DNA of 64,000 nt from Nitrospirota bacterium (GTDB taxonomy: Bacteria > Nitrospirota > Nitrospiria > Nitrospirales > UBA8639). The notes under the pieces are model-generated. The model saw only the letters and a program-made list of their open reading frames with translations. It was not told the origin of the DNA and made no database searches. How positions within the stretch are numbered: position 1 is the stretch's first letter; each line of letters begins with the position of its first letter. The translations under genes were made by a program, and so were the position numbers. The stretch spans positions 1 through 64,000 of the forward strand of contig JAQBUF010000005.1 of NCBI GenBank assembly GCA_027623995.1. Reading direction: 5' to 3'. Of this stretch, positions 4,559 to 37,130 are shown piece after piece.

Positions 4559-4588
4559 TTTTACCAGCCTCAAAAGGAGATAAGTACC

Positions 4589-4924: not shown

Positions 4925-5109
4925 CCAAGTCATATCAGCTAGTGGTATGATGATATTGCCATATCACGGTGTGTGGACTGTTGCCAAAATTCACGGGCTT
5001 ACTTAAAGGCCTCCTTCTTTCCTTGGTCTTGACGGCCAAGAAGAGCAGGTCCTCGTGAGCCAAGTCTTTTATACGTTTTGACAACAGTCAGTTTATGTAG
5101 GAGTGTCCT

Positions 5110-9275: not shown

Positions 9276-10517
9276 ATGCAAAAAATTCTCCATGGTATAT
9301 GTTGGGCGGTCGGCCTGTTGTTGGTGGCCGCTTTCTTGGTTATTTTGATCGATTTTCCCGCGACAGAAACGCTTGCTGCGAAACAGGGGGAGAGCAAACC
9401 TCTAGAAAAGGCCTATCCCCACTCACAAAAATGTAAGCGGTGTCACCTTCGGGTATTTGAAGAATGGGAAGCCTCGGCCCAATCGCGATCCATTATTAGC
9501 GCCCCCTTTCGAGTTTCGTTGGAACGCTATCGGGCGATGTCTAAAGACAAAGAAGGGGCGATGTGCTTTCGATGTCATGCCCCGAGTGTGTTGGAATACC
9601 CAGATCATACCGGTGTCTATATCAAAGAAATCGAATCAGGCGATCCTAAATTAGATGGCGTAGGATGTTCCCAATGCCACTTAATCAATGCGGTCGATCC
9701 GACACAGCATCCCCCTCATCCCACATATCAATTAGAGCGCACAGTCTTTGGGAGTTATCAAAAGCCTGAAGAAAACTTAGCCCATCAATCGGTACCGCTT
9801 CCGCTGTTTTCCCAATCCCAATTTTGTGTGACGTGTCATGAAAATTTACCGGGGTTTGAAAAGAAACTTCCGAAGTTGTTAGGGGCGTGGGAAGAATCCA
9901 AAACCCAAAAGGCCGGGAAAAACTGTCAGTCGTGTCACATGCCCGAAGAGTTTGGGGAATCGGCCAATGGAGAACGGAATCGGAAAATCGCCAATCATAG
10001 TTTCCCTGGGCGATTTGGGAAAGTTCGCGCTGATGCAGTCAAGCTGACCGTGGCCACAGAAGTGAAGGGGAAAGAATCCGAGGTCAAAGTCACGATACAA
10101 AGCTTGGTCCCTCATAATCTGCCGTTGCCACATCCTGGGTGGTCTCGGGTTGAAGTGGATCTCACCATTCTTGGAAAAAACTTACGAAAAACCTATGACG
10201 AGCAACGCCACTATGAACGGGTATTTGGGGACAAGGATGGCAAGCCCACGGTATTTGATTTCGAAGCGGTCAAAGTCCTGAAGGAAAATGTCCTGACGCC
10301 AGAGGAAACACGCGTGGAAACCTTCACCTTCCCCACGCCACCAAATGCGCCATCGATGGATGTCATCGTGACCCTCACGTATGCGCCGATTCATGGGCCT
10401 GATGAATTTGTCAAAGAAGTTGAGCAGCGTGCCGCTCTAGGAAAGAAAGACCGGGCCTTTAAGCCCGTGGAAATTGTTCGTTTTAAAGAAAATGTGAAAC
10501 TGACGGGCAACAAATAA
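9276..10517 (+). CDS. Pentaheme c-type cytochrome (c554-like), second of two
   Basis: A 413-residue paralog of the preceding cytochrome. An N-terminal hydrophobic segment (residues about 9-27) serves as signal or anchor. Five CxxCH motifs occur in the same order: CKRCH, CFRCH, CSQCH, CVTCH and CQSCH. A C-terminal beta-rich region follows, with the shared feature VPHNLPLPHPGWSRVEVDL that parallels the first paralog's LPHVFPGGDP segment. The gene starts 56 bases after its paralog and ends just before a strong terminator, so it closes the operon. The tandem arrangement suggests the two cytochromes form one electron wire or complex; this is inference. Confidence 0.88.
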   Translation: MQKILHGICWAVGLLLVAAFLVILIDFPATETLAAKQGESKPLEKAYPHSQKCKRCHLRVFEEWEASAQSRSIISAPFRVSLERYRAMSKDKEGAMCFRCHAPSVLEYPDHTGVYIKEIESGDPKLDGVGCSQCHLINAVDPTQHPPHPTYQLERTVFGSYQKPEENLAHQSVPLPLFSQSQFCVTCHENLPGFEKKLPKLLGAWEESKTQKAGKNCQSCHMPEEFGESANGERNRKIANHSFPGRFGKVRADAVKLTVATEVKGKESEVKVTIQSLVPHNLPLPHPGWSRVEVDLTILGKNLRKTYDEQRHYERVFGDKDGKPTVFDFEAVKVLKENVLTPEETRVETFTFPTPPNAPSMDVIVTLTYAPIHGPDEFVKEVEQRAALGKKDRAFKPVEIVRFKENVKLTGNK

Positions 10518-22628: not shown

Positions 22629-22662
22629 AAACCTTCTTGTGATTGAAGTAAAAAAGAAAAAT

Positions 22663-22696
22663 CCCCCTGTGGTTTTCTACACAGGGGGCTTTTTTA
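22663..22696 (+). terminator. Terminator of tkt/tal-pgi operon
   Basis: CCCCCTGTG pairs with CACAGGGGG across an 8-base loop and is followed by a T run. It lies 35 bases after the tal-pgi stop. Confidence 0.92.
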
Positions 22697-22774
22697 TATG
22701 AAATCGACGGAGATGTATATTTCAGGATCTAGAATGTGTAAGCGTTCAACGCGGAAAAATTTTTCCCCAATATT

Positions 22775-23152
22775 TTATTCCCATAACGTTGACACTGCGT
22801 ATCGTGATATTTGTGAATCATGAGTGATGAGCGTCAATTGTTCTATTTGTGCCTGTGCAACCAGCATGCGATCGAAGGGATCATCATGGTGTCGTGGTAA
22901 TCGGCCAGCATGCAAGGCATGTCCGATAGAAATTGGAAGAGGTAGAAATCGATTGGCCGCCATAGCCTCTTCAAGATTATCTGGCGCTTTGAGTTTTTTG
23001 AGAGATTTTTTGATGGAGATTTCCCAAGCGGTCGCGGCACTGACATATATGACATCACGGCCCTCTTTTAACACCGTGAGGATTTTGGGTGGAAGGGCTG
23101 TATACGAATCGAGCCACCACAGCAACGCATGAGTGTCGAGCAAGCATTTCAC
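22775..23152 (-). CDS. PIN-domain toxin (VapC-like)
   Basis: A 125-residue PIN-domain ribonuclease. Acidic active-site residues are visible in LLDTHALLWWL, AATAWEISIKKSLKKL, DDPFDRMLVAQAQ and the terminal LITHDSQISRY. It overlaps the upstream antitoxin by 4 bases (ATGA type), so the two are translationally coupled. VapC-type toxins cleave tRNA or rRNA. It is the first cargo inside the tal-pgi/zwf island. Confidence 0.9.
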   Translation of the reverse strand: MKCLLDTHALLWWLDSYTALPPKILTVLKEGRDVIYVSAATAWEISIKKSLKKLKAPDNLEEAMAANRFLPLPISIGHALHAGRLPRHHDDPFDRMLVAQAQIEQLTLITHDSQISRYAVSTLWE

Positions 23153-23388
23153 GTGGATTCGCCTTGAAAGGCTGAAGATATTGTCGATGGCAATTCATCG
23201 AAATCACGAGCTATCTTTACTTTGCCTTTCCAGTACCCTGGCTTTCGCGGCTGGCCAATGCTTGTATAGCTTATCAGTTTGGCCAAAGGTTTCCCGGCTC
23301 GCGCAATCACGACTTCTTCGCCGGAGGCTGCTAGGTCAAGGAGTTTTGATAGATGAGTTTTGGCTTCATAGACATTGACGGTTTTCAT
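23149..23388 (-). CDS. Phd/YefM-type antitoxin
   Basis: A 79-residue protein with the Phd/YefM DNA-binding signature MKTVNVYEAKTHLSKLLDLA, then GEEVVIARAGKPLAKL. The C-terminal half (residues 50-79) is the toxin-binding tail. It lies upstream of, and overlaps, the PIN toxin. A GGAGAC ribosome binding site precedes it. Confidence 0.9.
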   Translation of the reverse strand: MKTVNVYEAKTHLSKLLDLAASGEEVVIARAGKPLAKLISYTSIGQPRKPGYWKGKVKIARDFDELPSTISSAFQGEST

Positions 23389-23506
23389 GGTTGTCTCCTG
23401 CCTGAATTTCTGGCGTTGAATTCTGATTAAGTCTAGTCTAGTTTAACTCTGTGAATTGTAGGTAAGAACAGCTGGCGGGTCAAGAGCTCAGGATAACTTC
23501 ACATAT

Positions 23507-23791
23507 TTACTTTGGGAGGACATCAGGTTTTGGCTTGCGTCCTTCCTGAATTTTCGTAGTCGCGGCCTTTCGTACCTCTCCTAACACTTCCGGTGTCCAT
23601 TCTCGGTGTTGCCCGTCGGCCATTTTGTCCTGACCAACCTTAATAGCCGTTAGAAACTGGCACTTGCGTTCGTCTTCTTCACGCATATGTCTGACGGCAT
23701 CACGGACAAGCTCAGTTTCATTCATATAAAACCCTGACTCCACCTTGGTCTTTATGTAGTGTTCATCCACATCTGGAAATCTGATGTTCAT
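23507..23791 (-). CDS. ParD-like antitoxin without an adjacent toxin
   Basis: About 94 residues with a ribbon-helix-helix-like N-terminus (MNIRFPDVDEHYIKTKVESG, then NETELVRDAVRHMREEDER), as in ParD/CopG antitoxins. I chose the ATG at 23791-23789 because GAGGAGG lies 7 bases upstream; a longer frame starts at 23827. No ParE-type gene overlaps its 3' end, so it is an orphan or the toxin was lost. Confidence 0.7.
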   Translation of the reverse strand: MNIRFPDVDEHYIKTKVESGFYMNETELVRDAVRHMREEDERKCQFLTAIKVGQDKMADGQHREWTPEVLGEVRKAATTKIQEGRKPKPDVLPK

Positions 23792-23904
23792 ATCAGCATC
23801 CTCCTCAAAATATCCGATAATAATCACAATAGGTGTATTATTATTATATCATTATCGTATGTCTCGAGAAAGAAAAAAGGTGCCAAAGCCCACATGAAAA
23901 GGCG

Positions 23905-24098
23905 TAGACCAAGACCTCGCCATTCCAGGCGAGCCCTATTCCTTCGGTGTCCTTGCCACAGCCCAAGCCTTAGGTGATATGCAATGTCTGAACATCAGGA
24001 ACCGACGAGTGATCCGAATCCATCTCGGTGCGGATGTTGAAGCTGGGTTAAAGCGAATTCAAGCAGCAGTAGAAGGGGCAATGATGGCGAGTGCATAA
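23905..24098 (+). pseudogene. 3' tail of a second tal-pgi gene (relic)
   Basis: About 194 bases correspond to the last 63-64 codons of tal-pgi. Shared words include AACCGACGAGTGAT and GCGGATGTTGAAG (GGATGTTGAAG shared), and both end near a TAA. No upstream part of the gene is present. It is followed, as in the intact gene, by a terminator. It is not identical to the intact copy, so it is either an old duplication or a tail imported from a relative. Confidence 0.85.
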
Positions 24099-24132
24099 AA
24101 GCATTTTTGTTGTTGTCACATGGAAAAACCAA

Positions 24133-24171
24133 AGTCCCCTGTACGCTCAGATTCGTACAGGGGACTTTTTA
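24133..24171 (+). terminator. Terminator following the tal-pgi relic
   Basis: AGTCCCCTGTACG pairs with CGTACAGGGGACT, followed by a T run. It occupies the same relative position as the terminator after intact tal-pgi, though the stem sequence differs. Confidence 0.9.
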
Positions 24172-24236
24172 TTTGAATGAGCTTTCAAACGATTGTGCTA
24201 TAGCCAATGAAAGTTTCGACTGAAAGCGGCCTGGTC

Positions 24237-24593
24237 TTACACCAACCGCCACTTTCTTTCATCGGTCTCGATCAACTTGTCCGCTTCGACGGGACCCCAG
24301 GTGCCGGCGGGGTATTCGGGTAACCATTTCCCGCCATGGTCTTTCCAGCCTTGGATGATATCTGTGATCCAGGCCCACGAGGCTTCGACGGCATCGCGTC
24401 GCATAAAGAGCGAGGCGTCGCCGGCCATGACATCTAACAATAACCGTTCATAGGCTTCGGGCGAGGGAGCGGAAAAGGCGGCGCCATATTTGAAATTCAT
24501 TTCCACGGGTTGCGCGCGCGGCATCCTTGAATTTGTGACATGATGTCTCAAGGACATGCCTTCATGTGATTGGATCTGGGTGTTGTTGTTCAT
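24237..24593 (-). pseudogene. zwf 3' tail A (C-terminal 118 codons of a second G6PD gene)
   Basis: An open minus-strand frame of 118 codons matches the C-terminus of intact Zwf at 37131-38693: YGAAFSAPSPEAYERLLLDV, then DASLFMRRDAVEASWAWITD and ETDERKWRLV at the end. The first dozen residues are only loosely similar, so the breakpoint lies near 24540-24593. It faces the tal-pgi relic with a 138-base gap, reproducing a convergent tal-pgi/zwf junction. The polypeptide cannot be catalytic: it lacks the nucleotide-binding and substrate sites. Confidence 0.88.
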
Positions 24594-24846
24594 ACACAGC
24601 GCCCTTTTGCTTGGGGCCCGTTACGTTGACAATGCCTAGCGCGGCATTCCGTCAACTGGTTGAACGCGAGGCGATGTTGTGAACTCGCTTACAGATTCAT
24701 CAGGTCTTTTCCTTATATCTATTCGCAACGACTCTTCTATATGATTGCATTCCAGACCATCGTTAAACGGGAAGGGCAGGAAAAGAGGTCCGGCCAAGAT
24801 CGTCCATGAATTTTTAATGCCCGGCATCAAGGTAAAGGTGGATTTG
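24594..24846. other. Island junction sequence
   Basis: Between zwf tail A and the large surface-protein gene I see no coding frame with support. The segment presumably holds that gene's promoter. Confidence 0.35.
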
Positions 24847-24869
24847 ATGAAATCGTTTCGGTCTAGCAT

Positions 24870-27854
24870 TTGGTGTCGTGGCGTAGGCCTGGCGATTGTC
24901 TCTGTGTTTCTTGTCCACCTGAGCCCGCTTCCTCTCAGCACAGCCAACAATATTCCTCGAGTTTCCTTCCTCAGAAATTACAGAATACTCTTACACCACT
25001 TCTGACATGGTTCTCTCTCCCTGAAGTGTACGCCCAATCGCTGATGTGCGATGTCGATCGTGATGGCGACGTGGATCGGAATGATATTAATCTAATTTTT
25101 GGTGCGCGAGGGAGCCAAGCCACATCCGGTGATCCCCGCGACTCCAATGGCGATGGATTCATCACCATCAATGATGGCCGCTTCTGCGTGCTCCAATGCA
25201 CTTCCCCTCGATGTGGCATTCTCAATAGACCAGTCGCCAATGCCGGGCCGGATCAAACCGTGCCTCGCGACAGCACGGTGCAACTCGATGGCAGCGCCTC
25301 CACCGATATAGATGGGAATCCCCTGACATACCGCTGGGAAATCAAGGAACAGCCAGATGGCAGTTCAGCCCAACTGTCCGATCCGACATTGGTCAATCCG
25401 ACATTCCTGGTCGATCAACCCGGTTCCTACCTCCTTCAACTCATCGTCAACGATGGCGCACTCGACAGCCTCCCGGATACGGCGACCATCAATACCTCCA
25501 ATTCAGCTCCAGTGGCCAAGGCGGGCGAAGATCAATTCGTATTTGTTGGCGATACGACCAAGCTCGATGGCAGCGCCTCAAGCGATGTCGACGGCGATCA
25601 ACTCACGTTCTTTTGGGAATTGACCACCATTCCCGACCAAAGCACGGCCACGCTTTTAGACCCCACCGCCCTCATGCCGACGTTCTTGGTGGACCAGCCC
25701 GGAACGTATGAAGCCACACTCATCGTCAATGATGGGGCCGAAGCCAGCCAACCCGATACCGTGATCATCACCACGCAGAACAGCAAGCCCGTCGCGGATG
25801 CCGATGGCGATCAACTCACGTTCTCCTGGGCCTTGATCAGCAAGCCGGATCAAAGCACCGCCACGCTCACCAATCCCACCGATCCTAATCCCACGCTGAC
25901 CATTGATCGGTTCGGCACGTATGTGGCTCAACTCATCGTGCATGACGGGACCCTCCCCAGTGAGCCCGATACCGTGACGGTCAGTACGCTGAATAGCCGA
26001 CCCGTGGCGGATGCGGGCAAGGATCAGACGGTTCGCGTTCAGGAGACAGTCCAACTTGATGGGCGCGACTCGTTCGATGCGGACCTGGACCCCCTGACCT
26101 TTCGCTGGGCCTTCACCACGCGACCACCGAACAGTACCGCCACCTTCACCGACGACACCACGGACAGCCCTACGTTTGTCCCGGATGTGTCCGGCACGTA
26201 CATCGCCCAGCTCATCGTCAATGATGGCCTGCTCGATAGCGCACCTGATACCGTGACCACCACGGTCACGGACCCCAATATTCCCCCGGTTGCCAATGCC
26301 GGCCTCGATCAACTTGGCACCGTCGGGAAAAGGGCCTTTTGGATCGGAAGTCAATCCTTCGATGACAACAATGATCCCCTCACCTATCAGTGGACCTTAC
26401 GGTCGGCCCCACCTGGCAGTACGGCCACCTTGACAGCACCCACCACCGTCACGGCCTCCCTGGTCCCCGATCAGGTGGGATTCTATGAAGTGCAACTGGT
26501 GGTCCATGACGGCACCGAAGCGAGCGCCCCGAAAACCGCGATGGTCGAGGCCCGGGAACTCAATGAGCCGCCTACCATTATCTCAACCCCCGGCACGACC
26601 GGCCTCGTGGACCAAGCATATACCTACGATGTCGAGGCCACGGATCCGAATCTCGGGGATAGGCTCACGTATTCTCTCCCGCTGGCCACGTCCGGGATGA
26701 CGATTGATTCCGGCACCGGGCTGATCGAATGGACCCCCGGGGCAGAACAGGTCGGCCCTCACGACATCACCGTCAAAGTCGAAGACGGCCAGGGGGGGCT
26801 CGACTTTCAAACCTTCATCATGCAGGTGGCCCCGATCAACCTGGGCCCGACCGCCGTGGATGATGGCTACGACGCGCGCCAGGGCCAGACGCTGACCGTG
26901 CCCGCCAGTGGCGTCTTGGCCAACGACCCCGACCCCAACGGCGATGCCCTGACCGCCACGCTCATGACGCCTCCAACCAAAGGCACCGTCTCCCTCCACG
27001 GTGACGGTTCCTTCACCTACACGCCGCCGGCACAACCACCCATCACGGTAGGGTTTGATCGGCAGTGCAATGCCTCTGCAGACATCGTGTCCGGGAGCGG
27101 GACCATGGTCGTGGGGGATGTGGATGGCGATGGCGATACGGAAATTGTCGGCATGCGCGATTTCTTCGGGACCTTTTGGATTATCGATGGCGCCACCTGT
27201 GCCACTGAGTTTCCACCTACGTCTGTGCCACGGTTTTCAGGGTGGTCCACCCCCGCCTTGCTGGATATCGATGGCGATGGCGATCTAGAGATTATTGCTC
27301 CTGCAAATATCCAATTGGGCCCGAACTCACAAGCTGATCTTCTGATGGCGGTGCACCACGATGGCACATTGGCCTGGACCGGAAATAATGTCAATGGAAC
27401 AAGCGAATCCCTGAGCCACGATGTTGCGATCTGGACCAACTCACACGTCACGCTTGCCGATCTGGATGGTGACGGCCGCGTCGAAATTCTGATGCCGTAT
27501 CAGTTCCAGGTGAGCACCAGTGTGTCGCGTGATGGAGTCGCCGCCTACAACAGCGCGGACGGCACGCTGTTGTGGGAATATGACGGGCCACCCTTTATTC
27601 CGGCGCTAAACGGGTTCAGGGCTCCGGTACTGCATGTGATCGACCTGGATCTGGATGGTACCCGTGAGGTCATCATGGGGCAGAGTGTGGTGGATCACAC
27701 CGGTCAGCTTGAATTTCTATTGCCCATCGTCCCGCGGGGTGGCCTGATAGATCAGATCGCCCTCGCCTTTGCGAACTTTGACACGGATCCCTTTCCGGAA
27801 ATTCTAGTGCGGGACAGACAGTTTCATTACTGTTCAACCATGACGGCTCACTGA
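24870..27854 (+). CDS. Giant surface protein, N-terminal part (PKD-like and FG-GAP repeats; frameshifted)
   Basis: This 994-codon frame is the first part of a much longer gene. A signal-peptide-like start lies in another frame (ATG 24847, then FRSSIWCRGVGLAIVSVFLV), which implies a first frameshift around 24980-25005. Then come a dockerin/EF-hand-like calcium segment (CDVDRDGDVDRNDINLIF) and about five PKD/Ig-like repeats of about 90 residues (pattern PVANAGPDQ ... QLDGSAS ... LIVNDG). Next is a putative cadherin-like/Ig block (PPTIISTPGTTGLVDQAYTY), a VCBS-type block, and FG-GAP repeats (GDVDGDGDTEIVG, LDIDGDGDLEIIA, ADLDGDGRVEILM). The frame fails at about 27822 and continues in another frame. 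Likely secreted or cell-surface. Confidence 0.8.
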   Translation: MVSWRRPGDCLCVSCPPEPASSQHSQQYSSSFLPQKLQNTLTPLLTWFSLPEVYAQSLMCDVDRDGDVDRNDINLIFGARGSQATSGDPRDSNGDGFITINDGRFCVLQCTSPRCGILNRPVANAGPDQTVPRDSTVQLDGSASTDIDGNPLTYRWEIKEQPDGSSAQLSDPTLVNPTFLVDQPGSYLLQLIVNDGALDSLPDTATINTSNSAPVAKAGEDQFVFVGDTTKLDGSASSDVDGDQLTFFWELTTIPDQSTATLLDPTALMPTFLVDQPGTYEATLIVNDGAEASQPDTVIITTQNSKPVADADGDQLTFSWALISKPDQSTATLTNPTDPNPTLTIDRFGTYVAQLIVHDGTLPSEPDTVTVSTLNSRPVADAGKDQTVRVQETVQLDGRDSFDADLDPLTFRWAFTTRPPNSTATFTDDTTDSPTFVPDVSGTYIAQLIVNDGLLDSAPDTVTTTVTDPNIPPVANAGLDQLGTVGKRAFWIGSQSFDDNNDPLTYQWTLRSAPPGSTATLTAPTTVTASLVPDQVGFYEVQLVVHDGTEASAPKTAMVEARELNEPPTIISTPGTTGLVDQAYTYDVEATDPNLGDRLTYSLPLATSGMTIDSGTGLIEWTPGAEQVGPHDITVKVEDGQGGLDFQTFIMQVAPINLGPTAVDDGYDARQGQTLTVPASGVLANDPDPNGDALTATLMTPPTKGTVSLHGDGSFTYTPPAQPPITVGFDRQCNASADIVSGSGTMVVGDVDGDGDTEIVGMRDFFGTFWIIDGATCATEFPPTSVPRFSGWSTPALLDIDGDGDLEIIAPANIQLGPNSQADLLMAVHHDGTLAWTGNNVNGTSESLSHDVAIWTNSHVTLADLDGDGRVEILMPYQFQVSTSVSRDGVAAYNSADGTLLWEYDGPPFIPALNGFRAPVLHVIDLDLDGTREVIMGQSVVDHTGQLEFLLPIVPRGGLIDQIALAFANFDTDPFPEILVRDRQFHYCSTMTAH

Positions 27855-30775
27855 TCTGGCGCAGAGATGCGCCGAACTTCACCAATAGTCAGATTGTCAT
27901 CGCCGATCTGGATGGGGATGGAGCACCTGAATTCGCCTACGTTACGCGGTTTGGGATTCCTAATACGGGTGTAGCGTACCTGGCAGCCTACGATACGGAT
28001 GGGACCTTGATGTGGAGCCACGAAAATGAACCGGCCCTGCACCAGCCTAACGATGCGATGGGACGAAGCGCTGTCAATGCTTCGGCCTTCGATTTCGATG
28101 CAGACGGTGACGCCGACCTGTTTTTTGCCCGCTTTATTACCAGGGAGGCAAATCCGGGCAATGGTATCTATATCGTCGATGGTGCTGACGGCACGGTCAT
28201 GGCCTTCGATCCCGTTGAGCCTGGCTCGCATAACTGGCAATGGGATATTCGACTGACCCTTGCCGATGTGGATGGCGATGGCGCGGCAGAAATGGTGTAT
28301 GGCATAAGCAATCAAATCGGTGTCTTGCCCGTACGTGTTCTGCAGGGATTGCCGGGCAATCCGTGGCCGCCGACCCGGGCCGTGTACAATCAGCACCATT
28401 ATCAACCCATGCAGGTGAACGCGGATTCCAGCATCCCCCAACAGCCACGCCCGCACTGGCTGATTCCGGGGCTCAACAGCTACCGTGCGCATCCGGTGGT
28501 CCCCGGCGAAGATCCTGGCGCTACCGATAGATTCAGATACACGGCATCCGACGGTACAGCGACATCGAACGAAGCGACAGTGACCATCGCCATCACCAAT
28601 GTAAACGCACCCATCATTGTTTCCCGGCCCCCGCTCGGCGCTTCGCCCGGGCACGGCTATCTGTACGGGGTGCTGGCAACCGACGCCGATTTCGGTGATG
28701 TCTTCACCTATACGCTGGTGGATGCACCGGCTGGCATGACGATTGACAGCTTCTTCGGCATTGTCAACTGGCTACCGGACAGTGGCGATCTTGGCAACCA
28801 ACGGGTGCAGGTGGTGGTGTCCGACAGCCAGGGCAATACCGATGAACAATCTTTTACCATCAACGTAGCCCCACCCGTCATCGTCCCAAATCTCGTTGGC
28901 AGCGATGAAACCGGAGCGAGCGGTGCTCTGGGTGCTGCGGGCCTTGCTGTGGGCAGCATCGCCCAGGCCTTCAGTCTCACGGTTCCTGCAGGCGTCGTGA
29001 TTTCTCAGAGCGTCATGGGTGCTACGGAAAGTGCTGCAGGCGCGTTCATTGACTTCGTCATCTCTCTGGGTCCGCAGCCCATCTTCGTGCCGAGTCTGGT
29101 GGCGGTAAGTGAGCCGGTGGCCCGGAGTCTGCTTGAATCCGTTGGACTGAATCTCGGTGCTGTGACGCAGGCCAACAGCAATACCGTGCCGGCTGGTCTG
29201 GTGTTGGCCCAGGGCACGGCCGCGAACCAGCAAGTGGCTTTCGGCACGTCGGTGGCTATCACCGTGTCATCAGGTCCTTCGGTCAAGCTTGAGCTTGACC
29301 GACCATTAATAAGCTCCGGTGATACCTTGCCTGTCAGCATTACGCTGTTCGACAACACCGGGGTTGCGCTGGACCCGCAACCGCCCGTGGTCGTTAGTTT
29401 GGACTTTGATCCGCTCGCTGTTGTTGGCGTATTGCCCGTGGCAAGCTCGAGTGAGATTACAACAGCCTCCAATACCAGCGGAGCGTTTACGTTGATCGTG
29501 GATGCCGGAGCCCTGGGTAGTGCCAAAGCAAGCTTCATCGTACGCACAGGTCTTGCGATGGATACCTACTATGGGCCCATAGCCGAACTTGCGAATACCA
29601 TCGACGATGTCCAGGCACTCTATACCGATCTGGTCACTGCAGTCGCGGACAACGATCTGGTGCAAATACAAGCGCTGGGGGTGCAATTGCAAGCACTGCG
29701 AGGCAGTATCGATCTGGAAATTCTGGCAGATCGTACCCCCTTTGCACCGGAAACCGGTTTCATTCCTTCCCCCGCCGAAGCGAGCGCGGCAGGATTCCCT
29801 GCCACCTTTACCGAGGGCCAGGAGTTGCCGGAAATATTCAGGAAACTCGAACTGGCGATCAACGACAATCGGATTTTCCTGGAACGGCTGGATCCCAATG
29901 TTGGCCGTGACGACGATGTGCGTGCCCGATCCCTGAACAACCAGCTTGCCACCGGCGCTGCGGCGTTGAACACCAATGTATCCGTTGGCGCTCACGTCGT
30001 ATTCCAGGCTCAGTACTATGTGCTGTTGTCGCGCCTGATACCGGAGCTAATGGTCGCTGATCTGGACAGAAGCATCGCGGTTCTGACGGATGCCGGATTG
30101 TTGACATCAACCTGGGGCGAGAAACGGTTTGAAGGCTATGCGAGCGTAACGCCGCAAGCCTTCTATGCCGATACCCGCGACGTATTGTTTACCCTGGGCG
30201 GTGTGATGTCGGCCGGTGCCATAAGAACGAGCCTGATAAAGAGCATGTACATACCGCACATCACGCGCCTGCTCTCGTCGACCGCGATTCTGGCTGAGGC
30301 AAATGCACTGAGGGAAGAACAGGGGGCTCAGGATCTCGTTGGCATCATTACCGCTGCCTCTTTAAGCCTGCATATTTTTGAGACGGAGAATTCGGTGATT
30401 GAAGTGGCAGGCGTCAGCAATGATGCTCGCGCCTTCCAGGTACAAGTGATCGGGCCGGACAAGTACCAGGTCTGGCTGGACTTTGTCACCGGGGCCGAGA
30501 AGCCGGGGAGTGTTAAAGAGGCGGCGGAACTCGCCAAGGCAGCGGGAGATGCCGCGGCGGATTCACAGAACGGCACCCAGACTGCAGTGGCAAATAACAT
30601 TCTGCGTGGCTGTATCCTGGAGCAGAATTTGTCCTGTTCACAACTCGTGCTGGGCTTCGGGTTCCCGGTGGTGCACAAATCAGGTGCTTTTCCAGGGCCA
30701 GTGATCGTTATCCTGAGGGACGTGTCTGCTGGTAAATTGTACGCGAGTGTATATGCGTTTTTCCCGAAGAACTGA
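27824..30775 (+). CDS. Giant surface protein, C-terminal part (FG-GAP, Ig-like, PASTA; frameshifted)
   Basis: Continuation of the upstream frame after loss of one base, probably in the T run at 27822-27824. Reading on from 27824 gives SLLFNHDGSLIWRRDAP, which resumes the FG-GAP pattern (IADLDGDGAPEFAY); the first internal ATG is 28007. Further FG-GAP repeats, an Ig-like segment (GHGYLYGVLATDADFGDVFT), and two PASTA-like repeats follow (VPNLVGSDETGASGALGAAG and VPSLVAVSEPVARSLLESVG). The last 450 residues are an unrecognised, mainly helical domain. Codon use and higher GC differ from nearby core genes, which suggests transfer. Confidence 0.75.
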   Translation, partial: SLLFNHDGSLIWRRDAPNFTNSQIVIADLDGDGAPEFAYVTRFGIPNTGVAYLAAYDTDGTLMWSHENEPALHQPNDAMGRSAVNASAFDFDADGDADLFFARFITREANPGNGIYIVDGADGTVMAFDPVEPGSHNWQWDIRLTLADVDGDGAAEMVYGISNQIGVLPVRVLQGLPGNPWPPTRAVYNQHHYQPMQVNADSSIPQQPRPHWLIPGLNSYRAHPVVPGEDPGATDRFRYTASDGTATSNEATVTIAITNVNAPIIVSRPPLGASPGHGYLYGVLATDADFGDVFTYTLVDAPAGMTIDSFFGIVNWLPDSGDLGNQRVQVVVSDSQGNTDEQSFTINVAPPVIVPNLVGSDETGASGALGAAGLAVGSIAQAFSLTVPAGVVISQSVMGATESAAGAFIDFVISLGPQPIFVPSLVAVSEPVARSLLESVGLNLGAVTQANSNTVPAGLVLAQGTAANQQVAFGTSVAITVSSGPSVKLELDRPLISSGDTLPVSITLFDNTGVALDPQPPVVVSLDFDPLAVVGVLPVASSSEITTASNTSGAFTLIVDAGALGSAKASFIVRTGLAMDTYYGPIAELANTIDDVQALYTDLVTAVADNDLVQIQALGVQLQALRGSIDLEILADRTPFAPETGFIPSPAEASAAGFPATFTEGQELPEIFRKLELAINDNRIFLERLDPNVGRDDDVRARSLNNQLATGAAALNTNVSVGAHVVFQAQYYVLLSRLIPELMVADLDRSIAVLTDAGLLTSTWGEKRFEGYASVTPQAFYADTRDVLFTLGGVMSAGAIRTSLIKSMYIPHITRLLSSTAILAEANALREEQGAQDLVGIITAASLSLHIFETENSVIEVAGVSNDARAFQVQVIGPDKYQVWLDFVTGAEKPGSVKEAAELAKAAGDAAADSQNGTQTAVANNILRGCILEQNLSCSQLVLGFGFPVVHKSGAFPGPVIVILRDVSAGKLYASVYAFFPKN

Positions 30776-30827
30776 GCGAAAGATCGGTGCCGCTGCGCTG
30801 CCCCTATCACTTGGTCGGACCACTCGC

Positions 30828-31457
30828 ATGAAACGACGATGCGTTTCGATAGTTCTTACGGGCCTGATGCTAGCTTTGGGCGCCTGTTCAACGAATGTGG
30901 TGTCACCGGTTCCGGAGGTCATACGCAACGCGACGCGAGGCATCGTCACCATCGCGAACGAAGTGGGTTCACTCGGCACCGGCTTCGTGGTTGCGAGTGA
31001 TGGGTTGATCGCAACCAACTACCATATCGCAAGGAAAGTCATGATTTTCGTGATACTGCCATCGGGCAAGCACCTGCAAGCAACGCTGGTGGCAAAAAAC
31101 GAAGATTCCGATCTGGCGATTTTGCGGGTGCCTGCCGAGGACCTCATGTCGCTTGAACTGCGCTCGACGGAAGCAATTGTCGGTGAACCCGTTCTTGTAC
31201 TCGGAAACCCCTTCGGGCTTGGCCTGACCGCCAGCGCGGGTATTGTGAGTGCCATAGGAAGTAGTCTGAGGAAAACCGACCGCATTCAAACCGATGCAGC
31301 GATCAACCCGGGTAATTCCGGAGGACCTCTCCTCGATATGAAGGGGAAAGTGATCGGTATCATCAACGGCAAAACCACCATCGGTCATGGCGTGGGTTTT
31401 GCTGCTTCTGCGGAATCTGTGAAAAGACTGCTCAAGACTGTTCCCATGTTTCGGTAG
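30828..31457 (+). CDS. Trypsin-like serine protease lipoprotein (HtrA/DegP type, no PDZ)
   Basis: About 209 residues from the ATG at 30828. The lipoprotein signal ends LTGLMLALGACS. The S1C catalytic triad is visible: His in LIATNYHIARK, Asp in EDSDLAILRVP and Ser in INPGNSGGPLLDM. It ends soon after the protease domain (GVGFAASAESVKRLLKTV), so the PDZ domains of DegP are missing. It starts about 50 bases after the giant surface-protein gene and has similar base composition, so the two probably arrived together. A role in processing or quality control of exported proteins is inference. Confidence 0.88.
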   Translation: MKRRCVSIVLTGLMLALGACSTNVVSPVPEVIRNATRGIVTIANEVGSLGTGFVVASDGLIATNYHIARKVMIFVILPSGKHLQATLVAKNEDSDLAILRVPAEDLMSLELRSTEAIVGEPVLVLGNPFGLGLTASAGIVSAIGSSLRKTDRIQTDAAINPGNSGGPLLDMKGKVIGIINGKTTIGHGVGFAASAESVKRLLKTVPMFR

Positions 31458-31913
31458 ATAAACCAACTATCTCGGCGCCTTGCCGATACCGTCAGCGGAA
31501 GGAAGCCCGGGTATTGCAGTTCTACTATAGGTGATCAGTTGAAGCGATGATTGATCCAGGGTCCACCAGTTTTGCTGGTATTGTCATGTATGGACGCTCC
31601 CAAGAATGCAAGGGGTCTTAGTCGTACATAGCGCATGAAGTGTGCCGTCATGTATCCGGCCTGTTTGCGCAGTCCTATGGCCGCTGGCCTTGATGGAATC
31701 CGCCTCTCAAAAGGGCGGAGGAGAGACGCCCAGTCAACTTATCGAGCTGTGGGCTCAGACAATACCTCGGGTTAAATCTCTCCTGGCTACCTGTTTCGCC
31801 CTCATGCTCTCTTTTCCCTCGCAATTCCACTCGCGTTGCCCTACCGTTAGACGGCGTGAAAGTCCTGCTTCCGACTCATCATTGCCCAGACTGTTCGAGC
31901 CGTTTTATTGGCC
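31458..31913. other. Intergenic, no supported gene
   Basis: Frames of up to 96 codons exist, but none has a domain, ribosome binding site or plausible composition. Confidence 0.4.
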
Positions 31914-32117
31914 ATGGGGACCAGTGCGTTAACGCTGAGTAGTGTGGTTTTGTCGGCCCCCTTTGGGATACCTATTACTTTTGATTTGGGAGGTGCGAGG
32001 TCGATCACGGTGGAGGCGGGCCAACCGGTGATTCCGAAGCCATCCACCATCTTGTTGTTTGGCACAGGCCTGGCGGGATTGGCGGCCTGGCGCTTGAGAA
32101 AACACCAATTAGGGTAA
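31914..32117 (+). pseudogene. Truncated PEP-CTERM protein relic
   Basis: A 67-codon frame whose C-terminus is a clear PEP-CTERM sorting signal: PKPSTILLFGTGLAGLAAWR followed by basic residues. Only a short upstream segment without a signal peptide is left. It resembles the C-terminus of the intact PEP-CTERM protein at 33610. A terminator follows. Confidence 0.6.
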
Positions 32118-32154
32118 AGCCTGGCTTTATCAGCAGGCATCCTAATTATTGTGG

Positions 32155-32191
32155 GAGCCGGATTCCTTCATGAAGGAGCCCGGCTCTTTTT
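32155..32191 (+). terminator. Rho-independent terminator
   Basis: AGCCGGATTCCTTCATGAAGGAGCCCGGCT folds as a bulged hairpin and is followed by five T residues. It lies 38 bases after the PEP-CTERM relic. Confidence 0.8.
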
Positions 32192-32443
32192 GTTGAAGCC
32201 GCCACGGTTCGGCAATTGGAGAGAAAAAACTGCAAGGAAAAAGGGGACGCTACCCTTTATTATCTTCCCCTGCCATATTAACAATGGCTTTGGATGGAGG
32301 GGGCTACCTCGATTTGTCCCCAAGCTGAAATCACCGTTAATTCTATGACTCTTTCAATGGGAGAATTGTTTTCAGCCATGCGATTGGGTACTATTCAGAA
32401 ACCAAACACTAATTTCTTGGGGGTGAAATAGGGGAATAGATGT

Positions 32444-32716
32444 ATGCCTACGATTTCGATGTTCTATGGGATTCTTATCCGAATGTTTTTTTATGACACA
32501 GACAGGCATAATACACCCCACCTTCATGCTGACTATCAGGGGCAGGTTGCAGTGTATTCAATCCCGGAGGGCGGTGTGTTGGCTGGCTCACTCCCACCAA
32601 AGAAACATAAATTGGTGGTTGCCTGGATCCAAATACATGAAGAGGATTTGCTTGTTGATTGGGAATTAGCTGTTCACGGAAAGAAACCATTTCCTATTCG
32701 AGGTCTTGATCAATGA
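32444..32716 (+). CDS. DUF4160 protein, probable toxin-antitoxin partner
   Basis: A 90-residue protein with DUF4160 features: MPTISMFYGILIRMFFYDTD, then HNTPHLHADYQG and a C-terminal WELAVHGKKPFPI. It overlaps the next gene by 4 bases (ATGA). DUF4160/DUF2442 pairs are common on mobile DNA and are suspected toxin-antitoxin modules; a function has not been shown for this one. Confidence 0.85.
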   Translation: MPTISMFYGILIRMFFYDTDRHNTPHLHADYQGQVAVYSIPEGGVLAGSLPPKKHKLVVAWIQIHEEDLLVDWELAVHGKKPFPIRGLDQ

Positions 32717-32997
32717 ATATTGCAGAAATTACCCCGCGCGATAATTATTTTTTGTATGTTAAAGCTGAGGATGGGAATGCGGGATTATTTGATGTGAAAC
32801 CGTTTCTTGAATCTGAAGCTTTTGCTCCCCTGAAGGATGAACGCGAATTTCATCTCATTCATAACGGGAAATACTTTATTGAGTGGGATTGCGGTGCAGA
32901 TTTTTCTGCAGATACAATTTTTGCGCGATGGTCGCCCTTATCTCATGAAGGCCCCCATCACGCTGTTCCAGCTGACGCTCGTCCCTCGCGCTCCTGA
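32713..32997 (+). CDS. DUF2442 protein with an altered C-terminus
   Basis: A 94-residue protein. The first 75 residues match DUF2442 (DNYFLYVKAEDGNAGLFDVK ... IEWDCGADFSADTIFARW). The last 20 (SPLSHEGPHHAVPADARPSR) are Pro/His-rich and unlike the family, as if the 3' end ran into foreign sequence. Translationally coupled to the DUF4160 gene. Confidence 0.82.
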   Translation: MNIAEITPRDNYFLYVKAEDGNAGLFDVKPFLESEAFAPLKDEREFHLIHNGKYFIEWDCGADFSADTIFARWSPLSHEGPHHAVPADARPSRS

Positions 32998-33340
32998 GCT
33001 TGGCCTTGGCCTTTGGCCTTTAAAAAAGAGGACGTTACCCTTTATTGAAAGGGGGTCAAGCTTATTTAGTCATGTATTAATTTCACCGACTTTCCCGCCA
33101 TGCCGTGAGACCCACCAGCTTTCAAGACGCCCATGCTGTGTGTCATGTCATGAATCTGGGTAGAGGGCGGCAGCGTATCTTTCATGGTGCGCCCTATTAT
33201 CAGGATTTTCTAAACCCCCCTGTCTTCAGGTTATCCCTTTTCGCTTTTCGTTGTGTCTTTCTATGTAAAGCCAGGTGCGTCATATACCGTATCGTTGATG
33301 CTGCTTTGTGCGCCTTTCTTCGTATTTTTCCCGCCTCCTG
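32998..33340. other. Intergenic between DUF2442 gene and palindromic element
   Basis: No gene supported. GAGGACGTTACCCTTTATT near 33028-33046 repeats GGGGACGCTACCCTTTATT near 32243-32261, so the DUF4160/DUF2442 pair lies between short direct repeats. Confidence 0.45.
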
Positions 33341-33513
33341 TTCAACCTAGAAACGGCAGTTGGGCGCAAAAAAGCCGTGCAAGCTCTTGACGTGCATGGT
33401 GAAATACAAAAAGGCGTGGTCACCTTGGTGGTGATGAGCCATTTTTGGATTTTGCCAGGTGCGTCAAGAGGTTGTGCGGACTTTTGTGATCCAACTGCCG
33501 TTTCTAGGTTCAA
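33341..33513. repeat. 173-bp near-perfect palindromic element
   Basis: The left arm begins TTCAACCTAGAAACGGCAGT and the right arm ends CTGCCGTTTCTAGGTTCAA. The arms are about 85 bases each and remain similar throughout (for example CTCTTGACG against its complement CGTCAAGAG). The two strands therefore encode similar peptides. This is the form of a MITE or of paired ends of a deleted insertion sequence. Confidence 0.85.
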
Positions 33514-33609
33514 TGGTAGAGTTCTCCCTAATGATTGTTGGTCCCTTAGCGGGTAGAAGTTGTGAGCGTACTCAAGGGTTATTTTTTTTCTGAATGATGG
33601 AGGTCTAAC

Positions 33610-34218
33610 ATGAAAAGCGGGAGATTCTTTCTTCTAACCAGTATGGCTGCGCTGGTGTTGAGCGGCTTGGTCGGCGTAGCATCGGCACATGCCCTTTCCT
33701 TACACTTTGTGCCGTCGACGCAAACGGTGGATGTGGGGACTCCGGTCATGGTGGAGGTGGTGCTGAGTGGGCTGGATGCGGCTGGGCAGGTGGTGTCGGC
33801 CTTTGATCTGGACGTCACCTATGATCCCACGATTTTATTGGCCACCAACGTCACCTTTGGCCTGTCCTTAGGTGATCCGTTCTTTTTTGATGTACTCGAG
33901 AGCTTTTTCTTAGGTGTTCCAGGTGTCGTGGACTTTGCGGCATTGTCCTTCCTTTCAGATAGCGACCTCGCCGCTCTTCAAGGCGACAGCGTGACCCTCG
34001 CTCAGTTGGCTTTTGATACCATTGGAGCAGGAACGAGTTCACTGGCCTTTGTCTTGGATACCTTTAATGACGTCAAGGGGTTGAATGCGGAAATACTCGA
34101 TGTTTCGACGAATCTGGGAAGTGTGACAGCGAGTAACCCGGTGCCAGAACCCAGCACGATGTTGCTCTTGGGATCAGGACTGATCGGGCTCGTGGCCTGG
34201 CGCGTGAGAAAGCCCTAA
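33610..34218 (+). CDS. PEP-CTERM sorting-domain protein, cohesin-like
   Basis: A 202-residue exported protein. It has a signal peptide (SMAALVLSGLVGVASAHA) and a cohesin-like beta domain (LHFVPSTQTVDVGTPVMVEV, then SAFDLDVTYDPTILLA). The tail carries VPEPSTMLLLGSGL, a helix and basic RVRKP, the tripartite PEP-CTERM signal recognised by exosortase. The protein is expected to be anchored or processed at the cell surface, often with exopolysaccharide. A good GATGGAGG ribosome binding site precedes it. No exosortase gene is in the window. Confidence 0.9.
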   Translation: MKSGRFFLLTSMAALVLSGLVGVASAHALSLHFVPSTQTVDVGTPVMVEVVLSGLDAAGQVVSAFDLDVTYDPTILLATNVTFGLSLGDPFFFDVLESFFLGVPGVVDFAALSFLSDSDLAALQGDSVTLAQLAFDTIGAGTSSLAFVLDTFNDVKGLNAEILDVSTNLGSVTASNPVPEPSTMLLLGSGLIGLVAWRVRKP

Positions 34219-34278
34219 AGGATTTCATTCCTCAGAGCTTGGAATACCTTTCTCCGATTTGACCTTAATAGACTAAAG

Positions 34279-34310
34279 AGCCCCACGCTGGCTTGGTGGG
34301 GCTTCTCATT
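34279..34310 (+). terminator. Probable terminator after PEP-CTERM gene
   Basis: AGCCCCAC and GTGGGGCT form a stem around a 9-base loop. The following T run is weak. Confidence 0.6.
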
Positions 34311-34630
34311 TTGGGCGTATCGAGTTTTTTCAGTATTAAGACTCCTTCCTGCTGTCGCCTCCCAAGATACGCCACTACTGTCCCTGATTGTTTGCCATCA
34401 AAAAGGTGGACCTGAATACCGATCTTTGGATTTTAACAAAACGGAATTTTCAATTTTCTGATAAGAAGGAATGATGGGAGTACCCATGAACTGATTGAGG
34501 GTAAAGGCCCCATGAGGGTGCTCTTGCTCGGAGGTTTTGGCTATCAAAGGGTTGGATAAATTTAGGATGCGTGCCGTCGTACTAATCGACTATCGGAGGT
34601 TGTGAAATTTGCCCGTATCAAATTTGGCCC

Positions 34631-34706
34631 TCCACCAACCGCCACTTTCTTTCATCGGTTTCGATCAATTTGTCTGCTTCGACGGGGCCCCAGGTGCCGG
34701 CGGGGT
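34631..34706 (-). pseudogene. zwf 3' tail B
   Basis: About 75 bases match the last 25 codons of zwf, as in tail A (CCGCCACTTTCTTTCATCGG in both). The match stops abruptly at CGGCGGGG, just before the 3' end of the ATPase gene. Same orientation as intact zwf. Confidence 0.85.
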
Positions 34707-34718
34707 CACTCTAACCTG

Positions 34719-35918
34719 TTAAGATTGAGTGCCAACCCAATGTTCAACGGGTTTGGATAAAAAATCTTCAACGGTTATGCCGTCTCCTCCAACAAGGAGC
34801 ATGCGTGTGGGTTTAAATGCGGAGGCAAAGGCTTCCATGCCAGGTAGATGTTCTTGGCTTCGGCCACTTTTTACTTCGATGGCAGTTAGTGTTTTTCCCA
34901 CGCGGACCACAAAGTCCACTTCACGGTTTCGATCTCGCCAATAGAACACTTCGCACATCCCGGCTGCTGCTGCATTGGCCAGATGCGCACCAATGGCAGA
35001 CTCCACAATCCTGCCCCAAAAGGTTGTGTCTTGCCGGGCGATCTTCAGTGTGAAGCCTGACTGTGCGCTGAGTAGCGCGGTGTTCAACACTTGAAGTTTG
35101 GGGCTAGACGCACGCCTTCGCGCTGCACCTCCCGCGAATTTTTGTAAGCCGACGACCATCCCCGCTCCTGCGAGTAAATCCAAATAGTGCGCGAGAGTCG
35201 TGGTGTTCCCGGCATCTTGCAACTGGCCCAGCATTTTTTGATAGGAGAGAATCTGGCCTGAGTACGCACATCCCAATTCGAATATACGACGTAATAAGAC
35301 CGGTTTATCCACGCGAGTGAGCAATAACACGTCACGCGAGATGGTCGTTTCAATCAACGAGTCCTTCACGTAGCGAGCCCATCGAGCGGGATCCTTCACC
35401 AAGGATGCCGCACCAGGATAGCTGCCGTAGAATATAAATTGATCCAAGGTCCAGCCGAAGGCCTCTCGCATTTCAGAGTACGACCAGTGAGGGAGATGCA
35501 TGATTTCAAAGCGGCCAGCTAGGCTCTCGGTAAAGCCTCGTTGGATGAGGAGGGGGGCTGATCCTAGAAGAACGACTTTGAGTGGCACCTCGTTGGCGGA
35601 GTCGGCATCCCACAGGCGTTTGACGGATTCTGACCAGTGAGGAATTTTTTGAATTTCGTCGAGCACCAATAACGATCCGCGTCGTTTCGATTCTTTGGCC
35701 TCTAGGCGTGCGGCTTCCCACTGCTGGGCAATCCATTCTGAACTCTGGAGGGTGGGTTCATCGGCATTGGCATAACGAATGGGAATGCCGGAGGCTGTGG
35801 CTACCTGTCGAACGAGTGTGGTCTTCCCCACTTGACGTGCGCCGGTGATCACTTGAATGAAGCGACGGCGTTCTTTGATCCGACGGGCGAGAAGTGTGTT
35901 CTGAGGGCGGGTGTACAT
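34719..35918 (-). CDS. AAA-family ATPase with DUF4143 domain
   Basis: A 399-residue protein. Walker A is ITGARQVGKTTLVRQVA and Walker B is LLVLDEIQKIPHW. The C-terminal DUF4143 region has RDRNREVDFVVRVGKTLTAI followed by EVKSG, the PD-(D/E)xK-like nuclease core. Such proteins are common on mobile DNA; their role is unsettled, with toxin, nuclease or regulatory functions suggested. Two palindromes just upstream of the start look like an operator. A decayed copy of its 3' end lies at 36155-36243. Confidence 0.92.
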   Translation of the reverse strand: MYTRPQNTLLARRIKERRRFIQVITGARQVGKTTLVRQVATASGIPIRYANADEPTLQSSEWIAQQWEAARLEAKESKRRGSLLVLDEIQKIPHWSESVKRLWDADSANEVPLKVVLLGSAPLLIQRGFTESLAGRFEIMHLPHWSYSEMREAFGWTLDQFIFYGSYPGAASLVKDPARWARYVKDSLIETTISRDVLLLTRVDKPVLLRRIFELGCAYSGQILSYQKMLGQLQDAGNTTTLAHYLDLLAGAGMVVGLQKFAGGAARRRASSPKLQVLNTALLSAQSGFTLKIARQDTTFWGRIVESAIGAHLANAAAAGMCEVFYWRDRNREVDFVVRVGKTLTAIEVKSGRSQEHLPGMEAFASAFKPTRMLLVGGDGITVEDFLSKPVEHWVGTQS

Positions 35919-35928
35919 GGTTTGACGA

Positions 35929-35972
35929 ATTACTCAATACGTTGAGTAATTTTACTCAATGTATTGAGTAAT
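35929..35972. promoter_or_regulatory. Tandem palindromic operator of the ATPase gene
   Basis: Two adjacent 22-bp palindromes, each TTACTCAA-N4-TTGAGTAA. The first is at 35929-35950 and the second at 35951-35972, beginning about 10 bases before the ATPase start. This layout suits a dimeric repressor, possibly autoregulation. Confidence 0.75.
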
Positions 35973-36047
35973 GGCAATATCGAAATAGAGTATTGGTCAA
36001 CGGGAGGGTGGGGTGATGGGCAGGGCCGTGTTTATTTTCGAGTGGTC

Positions 36048-36113
36048 CTATACTAACCGCCACTTTCTTCCGTCGGTTTCAATGAGTTTGTCTGCTTCAG
36101 CAGGGACCCCTGG
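36048..36113 (-). pseudogene. zwf 3' tail C
   Basis: About 65 bases again match the zwf 3' end (ACCGCCACTTTCTTCCGTCG ... GTCTGCTTC). It is more diverged than tail B and carries small indels. Same orientation as intact zwf. Confidence 0.78.
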
Positions 36114-36154
36114 GTAAGGATGAAAAAATAGACTGATCATTGAAAAGGACTTAT

Positions 36155-36243
36155 CCAATGTTCAACGGATTTGGACAGAAATTTTCCCAGGGGAATGCTA
36201 TCATCGCCAGTGAGGGGCATGCAGTGGGGCTTAAATGTCGTGG
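36155..36243 (-). pseudogene. Relic of a second ATPase (DUF4143) gene, 3' end
   Basis: The stretch CCAATGTTCAACGGATTTGG ... GGGGCTTAAATG parallels the 3' end of the intact ATPase at 34737-34820 (CCAATGTTCAACGGGTTTGG ... GGGTTTAAATG). It sits just after zwf tail C, so tail plus ATPase end is a duplicated unit. Confidence 0.8.
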
Positions 36244-36318
36244 ATACCTCAAATACGTGTCAATTCTATATAGGCATCTCTAAAAACCGACTTTTTCCGT
36301 TGAGAAAACTTCGGGTCG

Positions 36319-36549
36319 TTATACTTGCTTGAGATAGGAGAAGTATTCCTCACGAGACATGCCCGCTGTTCGGAGATTATTTTTGATAATGAAGACAGGG
36401 ACTTCATCCCAATCGGGAACGACGAGTGGTCGAGATAGGCCTGGTTTGACAAACACGAAATGGTCTCCTTCTGTTCTCACCAAAGTAAATCCGGCTTTCT
36501 CTAGAATTTTTCGGAATTTCTTGGCAGAAAGTGGCGTAATTCTTGGCAT
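36319..36549 (-). CDS. hicA: HicA-type toxin
   Basis: A 76-residue mRNA interferase of the HicA family with a dsRBD-like fold: ITPLSAKKFRKILEKAGFTL, then the catalytic His in EGDHFVFVKPG and VVPDWDEVPVFIIKNNLRTA. It starts within the stop codon of the antitoxin gene (TAATG), so the genes are coupled. Confidence 0.92.
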   Translation of the reverse strand: MPRITPLSAKKFRKILEKAGFTLVRTEGDHFVFVKPGLSRPLVVPDWDEVPVFIIKNNLRTAGMSREEYFSYLKQV

Positions 36550-36824
36550 TAGATCGAGGGTCCAAGTTGCATGATCTCAGTGGCTACGAGTTGCGGGGCT
36601 TGCCATTTGCCGTCTGGATTCTGCTTAAATCCACTTTCCTGTAAGATGTCTTCCAATGTACCCATTTTTTCAGCTTCTTCAACAAATAAACGAACGGCAG
36701 TTTTTAAATTGTATCGTGCTTCATCAATGGTTTTCCCACAGCTGGATACATCCAGTTCTGGGCAATGGGAGATAAAGGTATTTTCCTCACGAAATACAAT
36801 CGCATCAAAATCCATCACATTCAT
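36549..36824 (-). CDS. hicB: HicB-type antitoxin
   Basis: A 91-residue partial RNase H-like antitoxin: FREENTFISHCPELDVSSCG, then TIDEARYNLKTAVRLFVEEA. It comes first in the operon, the hicBA order. The C-terminus has a short tail with no clear DNA-binding domain. The pair lies between the ATPase relic and the ATPase operator relic. Confidence 0.9.
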   Translation of the reverse strand: MNVMDFDAIVFREENTFISHCPELDVSSCGKTIDEARYNLKTAVRLFVEEAEKMGTLEDILQESGFKQNPDGKWQAPQLVATEIMQLGPSI

Positions 36825-37008
36825 GATTTCCTCCTAATTTAAGAGCTTTCAAAAACCATTTTGTTATGCGTCCCTTTACTATACGTGGAAAGTTTTTCTC
36901 TCTCCAGTCAATTGTTGAGTTTGGATCAAAGTTATCCCTTGCCTGTTAAGGGGAAATTTGGGGCAAGGAATAGAAAGGAAGAAGAGTGCAGGGTGAGGTG
37001 TCGCTGAC

Positions 37009-37048
37009 AATTTACTCAGTATGTTGAGTAAATTTACTCAATGCTTAG
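37009..37048. promoter_or_regulatory. Relic of the tandem palindromic operator
   Basis: TTTACTCA-N6-TGAGTAAA is followed by a half-site TTTACTCAATG. It matches the order at 35929-35972 but the second palindrome is broken. It marks the 5' side of the lost second ATPase copy. Confidence 0.7.
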
Positions 37049-37130
37049 GGTGAGGACAAAACCGATGATGGTTTATGTGGATCGGGATACATTAAAAATA
37101 ATGGGTTAGGTTTGTTGTGTTTTCTTCGTT

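Follow-up and report, generated by a model that had tools for sequence, protein, structure and literature searches.

The 64,000-nucleotide stretch of DNA analyzed here (the window; positions 1 to 64,000 of contig JAQBUF010000005.1, assembly GCA_027623995.1, from a Nitrospirota bacterium) carries a giant gene of ~5.9 kb (24847-30775, + strand) that is split into two open reading frames. On balance, we read this gene as a member of a rare family of secreted surface or matrix adhesins of ~1,900-2,000 residues, acquired laterally and inactivated recently. The reading draws on the continuous frames of the gene's relatives, on a domain order in which an FG-GAP propeller seems to be nested in a cadherin-like unit, and on the position of the gene within an insertion between two metabolic genes.

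The first half of the gene is open from 24867 to 27854 (called frame 24870-27854, 994 aa) and the second from 27782 to 30775 (called frame 28007-30775, 922 aa), both on the + strand. The two frames overlap only at 27782-27851, which is bounded by stops at 27779 and 27852 and is the region of the frame break. A peptide-pattern scan of genome contigs gave 56 pattern matches for the second half, among which two close relatives were recognized, both in gammaproteobacterial metagenome-assembled genomes (MAGs): L039 (39%) and L040 (41%), each a continuous frame, of 1,925 and 1,927 aa, respectively. When these are used as tblastn queries, both switch frame in the window at 27830. A further copy, L059 (genome G228, from the window's phylum and another family), is a single frame of 1993 aa, whereas L064 (genome G708, 1739-6348, - strand) is broken as well: its match to L039 begins no earlier than residue ~392, the front ~390 residues being missing, and it has a frame change near 2935. 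Three of the five copies are therefore intact and two are broken, at different places; the site of the window's break is undisturbed in all four others. The initial annotation had claimed one gene of nearly 6 kb split near 27822, and the three intact homologs that a search recovered, with continuous frames of 1,925-1,993 codons, bear this out.

A long open frame in each half could also mean that the halves are separate genes, or that programmed frameshifting makes two products on purpose. We hold this to be very improbable. Homologs with separate halves were looked for and not found; the 3/3 intact relatives, together with L064, run through the site without interruption; the break falls inside the propeller, separating loop five from loop six of its eight calcium-type loops; and the front of the second half shows no signal-like start. 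Separate genes were rejected because the three intact copies contradict them, and programmed frameshifting because the relatives are unbroken at the site and the break regions hold no in-phase slippery heptamer, the single heptamer present being out of phase.

Inactivation of the giant gene is probably real, and we infer it in preference to an error of sequencing or assembly that would leave the gene intact and working in the organism, an explanation that we consider possible but unlikely. In favor of an error, each half is otherwise without stops, one long open frame apart from the breaks, which weighs against inactivation; the genome is a 3.13-Mb draft in 110 contigs, and assembly may go wrong in a gene rich in repeats. 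Against it, comparison with a locus of the same genus (L060) shows no frame change in the neighboring genes, as all seven sense-strand gene matches lie each in one frame (two further matches, one antisense and one to a remnant of g6pd, and the unmatched L060 frames being uninformative). Neither break region contains a run of at least four identical bases, and remnants of gene ends share the same insertion.

A further break is likely at the front of the gene. The probable true start is ATG 24847, preceded by a purine-rich stretch that we take to be a ribosome-binding site and followed by a signal-peptide-like segment (24847-25005, + strand; hydrophobic segment score 1.9) whose frame stops at 25003-25005. 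The main frame, open only from 24867, has no hydrophobic segment that exceeds the threshold applied. Because the signal-like segment lies in the other frame, and because in L070 (genome G007) a signal-like segment, linker and EF-hand part all stand in one frame, a break between the signal peptide and the body of the protein is likely (candidate region 24867-25002, + strand, between frame stops at 24864 and 25003). The initial annotation's frameshift near the signal peptide is thus made likely rather than proven. Five loci with related N-termini were compared, of which L071 and L073 gave no useful frame; in L074 the signal is present without the long linker, and in L072 a different protein carries the EF-hand part, close to its end. 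A search with the N-terminus found matches in 5/48 genomes of the window's family, its own included, and this type of N-terminus occurs in none of the full-length relatives.

Pfam orders the two halves as K319L/PKD, He_PIG, Cadherin_4/Big_9 and FG-GAP_3 before the break and FG-GAP_3, Big_9, He_PIG and PASTA after it, so that the PKD, FG-GAP and PASTA parts first assigned to the protein are confirmed. The reading as a secreted-type surface protein is also supported. Only the dockerin-like part fares poorly: the segment at 25038-25175 matches EF-hand_6 (E 0.0098) and Dockerin_1 (E 0.28; 11.9 bits against a cut-off of 22.9) below the cut-offs of both, and the protein is not assigned to the type I dockerins. 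K319L/PKD-type Ig repeats follow at approximately 25240-26560 (PF22352, E 6.8e-43); similar repeats, 39-47% identical, occur in an 854-aa frame on contig C83 of the same genome. Next come a first He_PIG Ig-like domain (26568-26828, Pfam), the first part of a cadherin-like/tandem-95 unit (26811-27032; NF012211 positions 6-55 of 98, E 1.1e-10; Cadherin_4, E 1.9e-19), the FG-GAP propeller (approximately 27036-28490, with five loops before the break and three after it), the last part of the cadherin-like unit (28523-28609; NF012211 positions 61-89 of 98, E 5e-5), a second He_PIG domain (28610-28870, Pfam), two PASTA domains (28880-29272, start approximate; PF03793, E 6.3e-17, two stretches) and a C-terminal region of ~497 aa (29282-30775), all on the + strand. 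The He_PIG, Cadherin_4/Big_9, FG-GAP_3 and two PASTA stretches are common to L039, L040, L059 and the first frame of L064, and the C-terminal region is present in all five copies.

In all five copies, judged from profile matches, the propeller seems to be nested in the cadherin-like (tandem-95/Big_9) unit. The ten flanking fragments, picked by eye around two conserved motifs, all match NF012211, with positions 5-55 of 98 before the propeller and 61-92 after it, and Pfam Big_9 shows the split unit in the window, L039 and L059. Several points weigh against the nesting. The fragment scores are individually low (E 1.1e-10 to 0.052), all under the whole-protein cut-off of 90 bits; Pfam misses the second part of Big_9 in L040 and L064; and structure predictions of the C-terminal region (three sequences) and of the nested propeller (two sequences) are poor, with mean predicted local distance difference test scores of 47 and 34, which leaves sequence profiles as the basis for both the blades and the nesting.

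By sequence, the solved structure that the propeller matches best is that of Bap1, a biofilm adhesin of Vibrio cholerae. With a profile of the L040 and L039 propellers, 6mlt (listed as Hemolysin-related protein) comes first at E 6.6e-15, followed by YesX (2.7e-4), YesW (7.7e-4) and cartilage acidic protein (1.7e-3); with the propeller part of the window alone, 6mlt is found at E 9.2e-7, its alignment extending as far as the propeller's end, and a further match is a polysaccharide lyase of family 11 at E 0.0023. These scores support a sequence relation to propellers of the Bap1/RbmC type. They also leave room for a polysaccharide-degrading enzyme, that is, a lyase-like propeller on Ig and PASTA carriers, which we judge improbable. 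YesX and YesW, which we take to have lyase activity, and the family 11 lyase are among the matches; RGL11_C (rhamnogalacturonan lyase) is weakly matched in four of the five copies (window, L040, L059 and L064), and the lambda-carrageenase propeller is matched in L059 at E 1e-5. All of the Pfam scores for RGL11_C and lambda-carrageenase lie below the cut-off, however, and Bap1 scores better with both the L040/L039 profile and the window's own part.

An adhesin of the Bap1 kind remains the reading that we prefer. The structure 6MLT is described as that of Bap1, an eight-bladed propeller with a beta-prism inserted (PMC8295476), and the propellers of Bap1 and RbmC are reported to bind the biofilm polysaccharide VPS (PMC10102183). 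Calcium-type loops, counted with a pattern written after inspecting the loops, number eight in the window, L039 and L040. On the other side stand the distance of the Bap1 match, so that a ligand need not be shared; the more distant L059 propeller, whose top three matches are designed propellers, with 6mlt in fourth place at 9e-11; and the loop pattern, which finds only seven loops in L064 and six in L059. No prism family appears in the Pfam scans, and no search aimed at prisms was made.

The PASTA domains do not make the protein a kinase or a penicillin-binding protein: PknB_PASTA is matched only at positions 363-499 of 563, and no family of either kind appears in the Pfam scan. The initial annotation had singled out PASTA repeats in a secreted FG-GAP protein, outside their usual setting of kinases and penicillin-binding proteins; the lack of a kinase domain holds, but it is not special, as frames in the same family of bacteria (genus g9, see below) also combine PASTA domains with no kinase match. 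For the C-terminal region that follows, whole-protein scans at E 0.01 list neither a Pfam nor an NCBIfam family, and among solved structures its profile retrieves nothing beyond SUN2 (E 0.0074) and a protein of capsular biosynthesis (E 0.79). Both were set aside as chance matches of helical stretches. With no family match and only such weak structural ones, the region may be a new domain. Among viral contigs, 137 pattern matches to this region yielded no relatives, and plasmids and phages gave no match.

The family looks rare in the genomes sampled, which overlap and are, small orders excepted, draws from larger groups. A profile of the C-terminal region finds it in 2/395 genomes of the window's phylum (its own and G228), in one of two genomes of the order of G059 (itself), in 2/369 of the class of G059 (itself and G708), in 1/293 of the order of G060 (itself) and in 1/13 of the order of G708 (itself), and a five-row profile finds it in 1/398 genomes of the phylum of G060, again itself. 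Among the matches listed for 58 relatives of the window (in five genomes, 15 of 18-25 candidates were scored), none extends past residue 428 of the second half, and so none lies in the C-terminal region. The window's own genome gave no match to 16S. It counts against our reading of the family that only three intact copies are known, two of them in MAGs.

The gene lies in a 14.5-kb insertion (22640-37120) between tal-pgi, which ends at 22628, and g6pd (37131-38693). In genomes G001 (L060) and G005 (L050), tal and g6pd are adjacent and converging, G001 having the tal part only. The insertion holds an extra 3' end of tal-pgi (23910-24110, + strand, 79% identical) and three extra 3' ends of g6pd, all on the - strand (24238-24575, 85% identical; 34625-34706; 36043-36113). 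The three g6pd ends all finish at or near the stop codon, and the gene-end pairs compared are 77-91% alike. The four extra gene ends look as though they delimit segments that were inserted repeatedly at gene 3' ends; on this reading, DNA entered more than once where two converging metabolic genes have their 3' ends. Scans of ten small genes of the insertion found PIN, a weak RHH, a g6pd remnant, DUF4160, DUF2442, PEP-CTERM, AAA_14/DUF4143, HicA and the protease described below, with one gene giving no match, and found no integrase family among them; 36549-36824 is presumably HicB.

We infer a lateral origin of the giant gene from the adjacency of tal and g6pd in G001 and G005, its higher GC content at third codon positions (GC3), the absence of a listed C-terminal match in the 58 relatives, and the second half, which stands nearer to the MAG copies (39-41%) than to the copy in G228 (26%), a genome from the window's own phylum. 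From the PKD repeats on, the gene has a GC content of 0.56-0.64 and a GC3 of 0.62-0.78, whereas the 14 other window genes measured have values of 0.42-0.55 and 0.37-0.61. Its EF-hand start has a host-like GC3 of 0.475, and a host-type front end may thus have been fused to a foreign body. One observation weighs on the other side: in L048, L051 and L052 no g6pd follows tal-pgi in the ~0.2-1.5 kb examined, so the adjacency of the two genes is not general. High GC is not unique to the giant gene, since a second high-GC stretch runs from 58.4 kb on (a very long frame, 58401-64000, continuing to C100:67025), which we take to be a gene for cyclic beta-glucan synthase. The initial annotation's suggestion of acquisition from base composition is in keeping with the GC3 difference and with the position of the gene.

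Directly downstream lies a gene for an HtrA-type serine protease (30747-31457, + strand, likelier start 30828; PF13365, E 1.2e-30; TIGR02037), reduced to a catalytic domain with a lipoprotein-like signal. An HtrA-type gene also comes directly after the L039 copy (9748-10431) and the L064 copy (971-1684, - strand), their products being 42 and 43% identical to the window's, and GNSGG is found in all three, which have the trypsin-like catalytic domain of HtrA/DegP. The PDZ domain of that group is lacking in the window protease: the protein is 236 aa long, its TIGR02037 match goes no further than model position 226 of 434, and the scans list no PDZ family. The L039 protease is likewise without PDZ, and that of L064 was judged by length and alignment only. 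By eye, the signals of the window and L039 proteases end in a lipoprotein-like cysteine, which we take to be part of a lipobox, and that of L064 does not. The association is thus present in three of five copies, or in three of the four where the neighbor can be fully judged. Against a fixed pairing, a different gene adjoins L059, and there is no match in the 220 bases of contig left after L040. Just after the protease, the window also has a short frame with a PEP-CTERM-like tail (31908-32117), possibly left over from a sorted surface protein.

The N-termini of the intact copies differ from that of the window's copy and carry an internal PEP-CTERM-like or similar hydrophobic segment with a second signal (L039 3974-4750; L040 3977-4720; L059 1057-1770). 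In a scan of a short region, the segments of L039 and L040 match TIGR02595 at 19.5 and 16.2 bits (cut-off 16), and in a longer region at 17.7 and 14.4 bits; scans of the whole proteins at E 0.01 list the related NF038129 alone (E 0.0021 and 0.0097) and not TIGR02595. By eye, a second signal-like segment follows in the same frame, which a hydrophobicity scan flags in L039 and not in L040, and two comparable hydrophobic segments occur in L059, with no PEP-CTERM match. Short N-terminal pieces of L040 and L059 also match positions 30-85 of NF033207, midcut-by-XrtH, weakly (12.9 bits, cut-off 45; E 0.08-0.09), with no match in L039 or in longer N-terminal pieces. The internal segment, the second signal and these weak matches suggest that the intact copies may be cut in the middle of the protein.

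Four features had gone unnoticed in the initial annotation: the apparent nesting of the propeller, the neighboring protease, the likeness to Bap1 and the extra ends of tal-pgi and g6pd at the insertion. As to how a working copy might function, we propose that a stalk of Ig-like domains would present the propeller, which would grow out of one cadherin-like unit and, being related to that of Bap1, could bind polysaccharide outside the cell, aided by calcium. Contact with the envelope may come from the PASTA domains together with the C-terminal region, and the neighboring HtrA-type protease may trim or release the adhesin. We raise more tentatively, and with more doubt than belief, a wider proposal: that this is a giant matrix adhesin family absent from the papers searched, joining a Bap1-like propeller in a cadherin-like unit to a dedicated PDZ-less HtrA-type protease; that its intact copies, with an internal exosortase-type sorting signal and a second signal, are cut mid-protein and displayed as two parts; and that the cassette spreads between distant bacteria and decays quickly. 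Our literature search found no paper on the exosortase H/midcut question, on adhesin release of the HtrA type, or joining a PASTA domain with an FG-GAP surface protein or with VCBS.

Among known systems, the giant protein belongs with the large FG-GAP/Ig adhesins that have a Bap1-related propeller. Within the window's own bacterial family, a comparable group is the PASTA-array proteins of genus g9 (L010, L011, L012 and L014), which likewise have PASTA domains without a kinase match, one of them also with FG-GAP_3. Of five such loci, four open frames were scanned; each has 6-11 PASTA stretches, and none matches a kinase at E 0.001. All four are cut by the end of the locus, and three of the four begin, by eye, with a signal-like segment. 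They differ in their long PASTA arrays and in having no cadherin-like family at E 0.001, and their listed matches end before the C-terminal region. The likeness to NCBIfam NF033207 lies in the weak match of the short N-terminal regions of L040 and L059, whereas the window copy has a different N-terminus. BapP of Pseudoalteromonas tunicata is, as its report describes it (PMC12153261), likewise a calcium-type adhesin of large size, with a propeller as well as Big_9 and cadherin-like repeats, but its propeller is predicted to be five-bladed and N-terminal, ahead of the repeats, and the main text of that report contains no mention of FG-GAP or PASTA. Bap1/RbmC of Vibrio cholerae (6MLT) share a related propeller of the FG-GAP type, in an alignment that reaches its end region. 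In Bap1, however, a beta-prism is described as set into the propeller (PMC8295476), whereas in the giant protein the propeller itself appears to be set into the cadherin-like unit and is followed by PASTA domains and a C-terminal region with no family match. If this nesting is true, a sugar-binding type of propeller is mounted inside an Ig-like stalk domain, rather than strung beside it, outside Vibrio.

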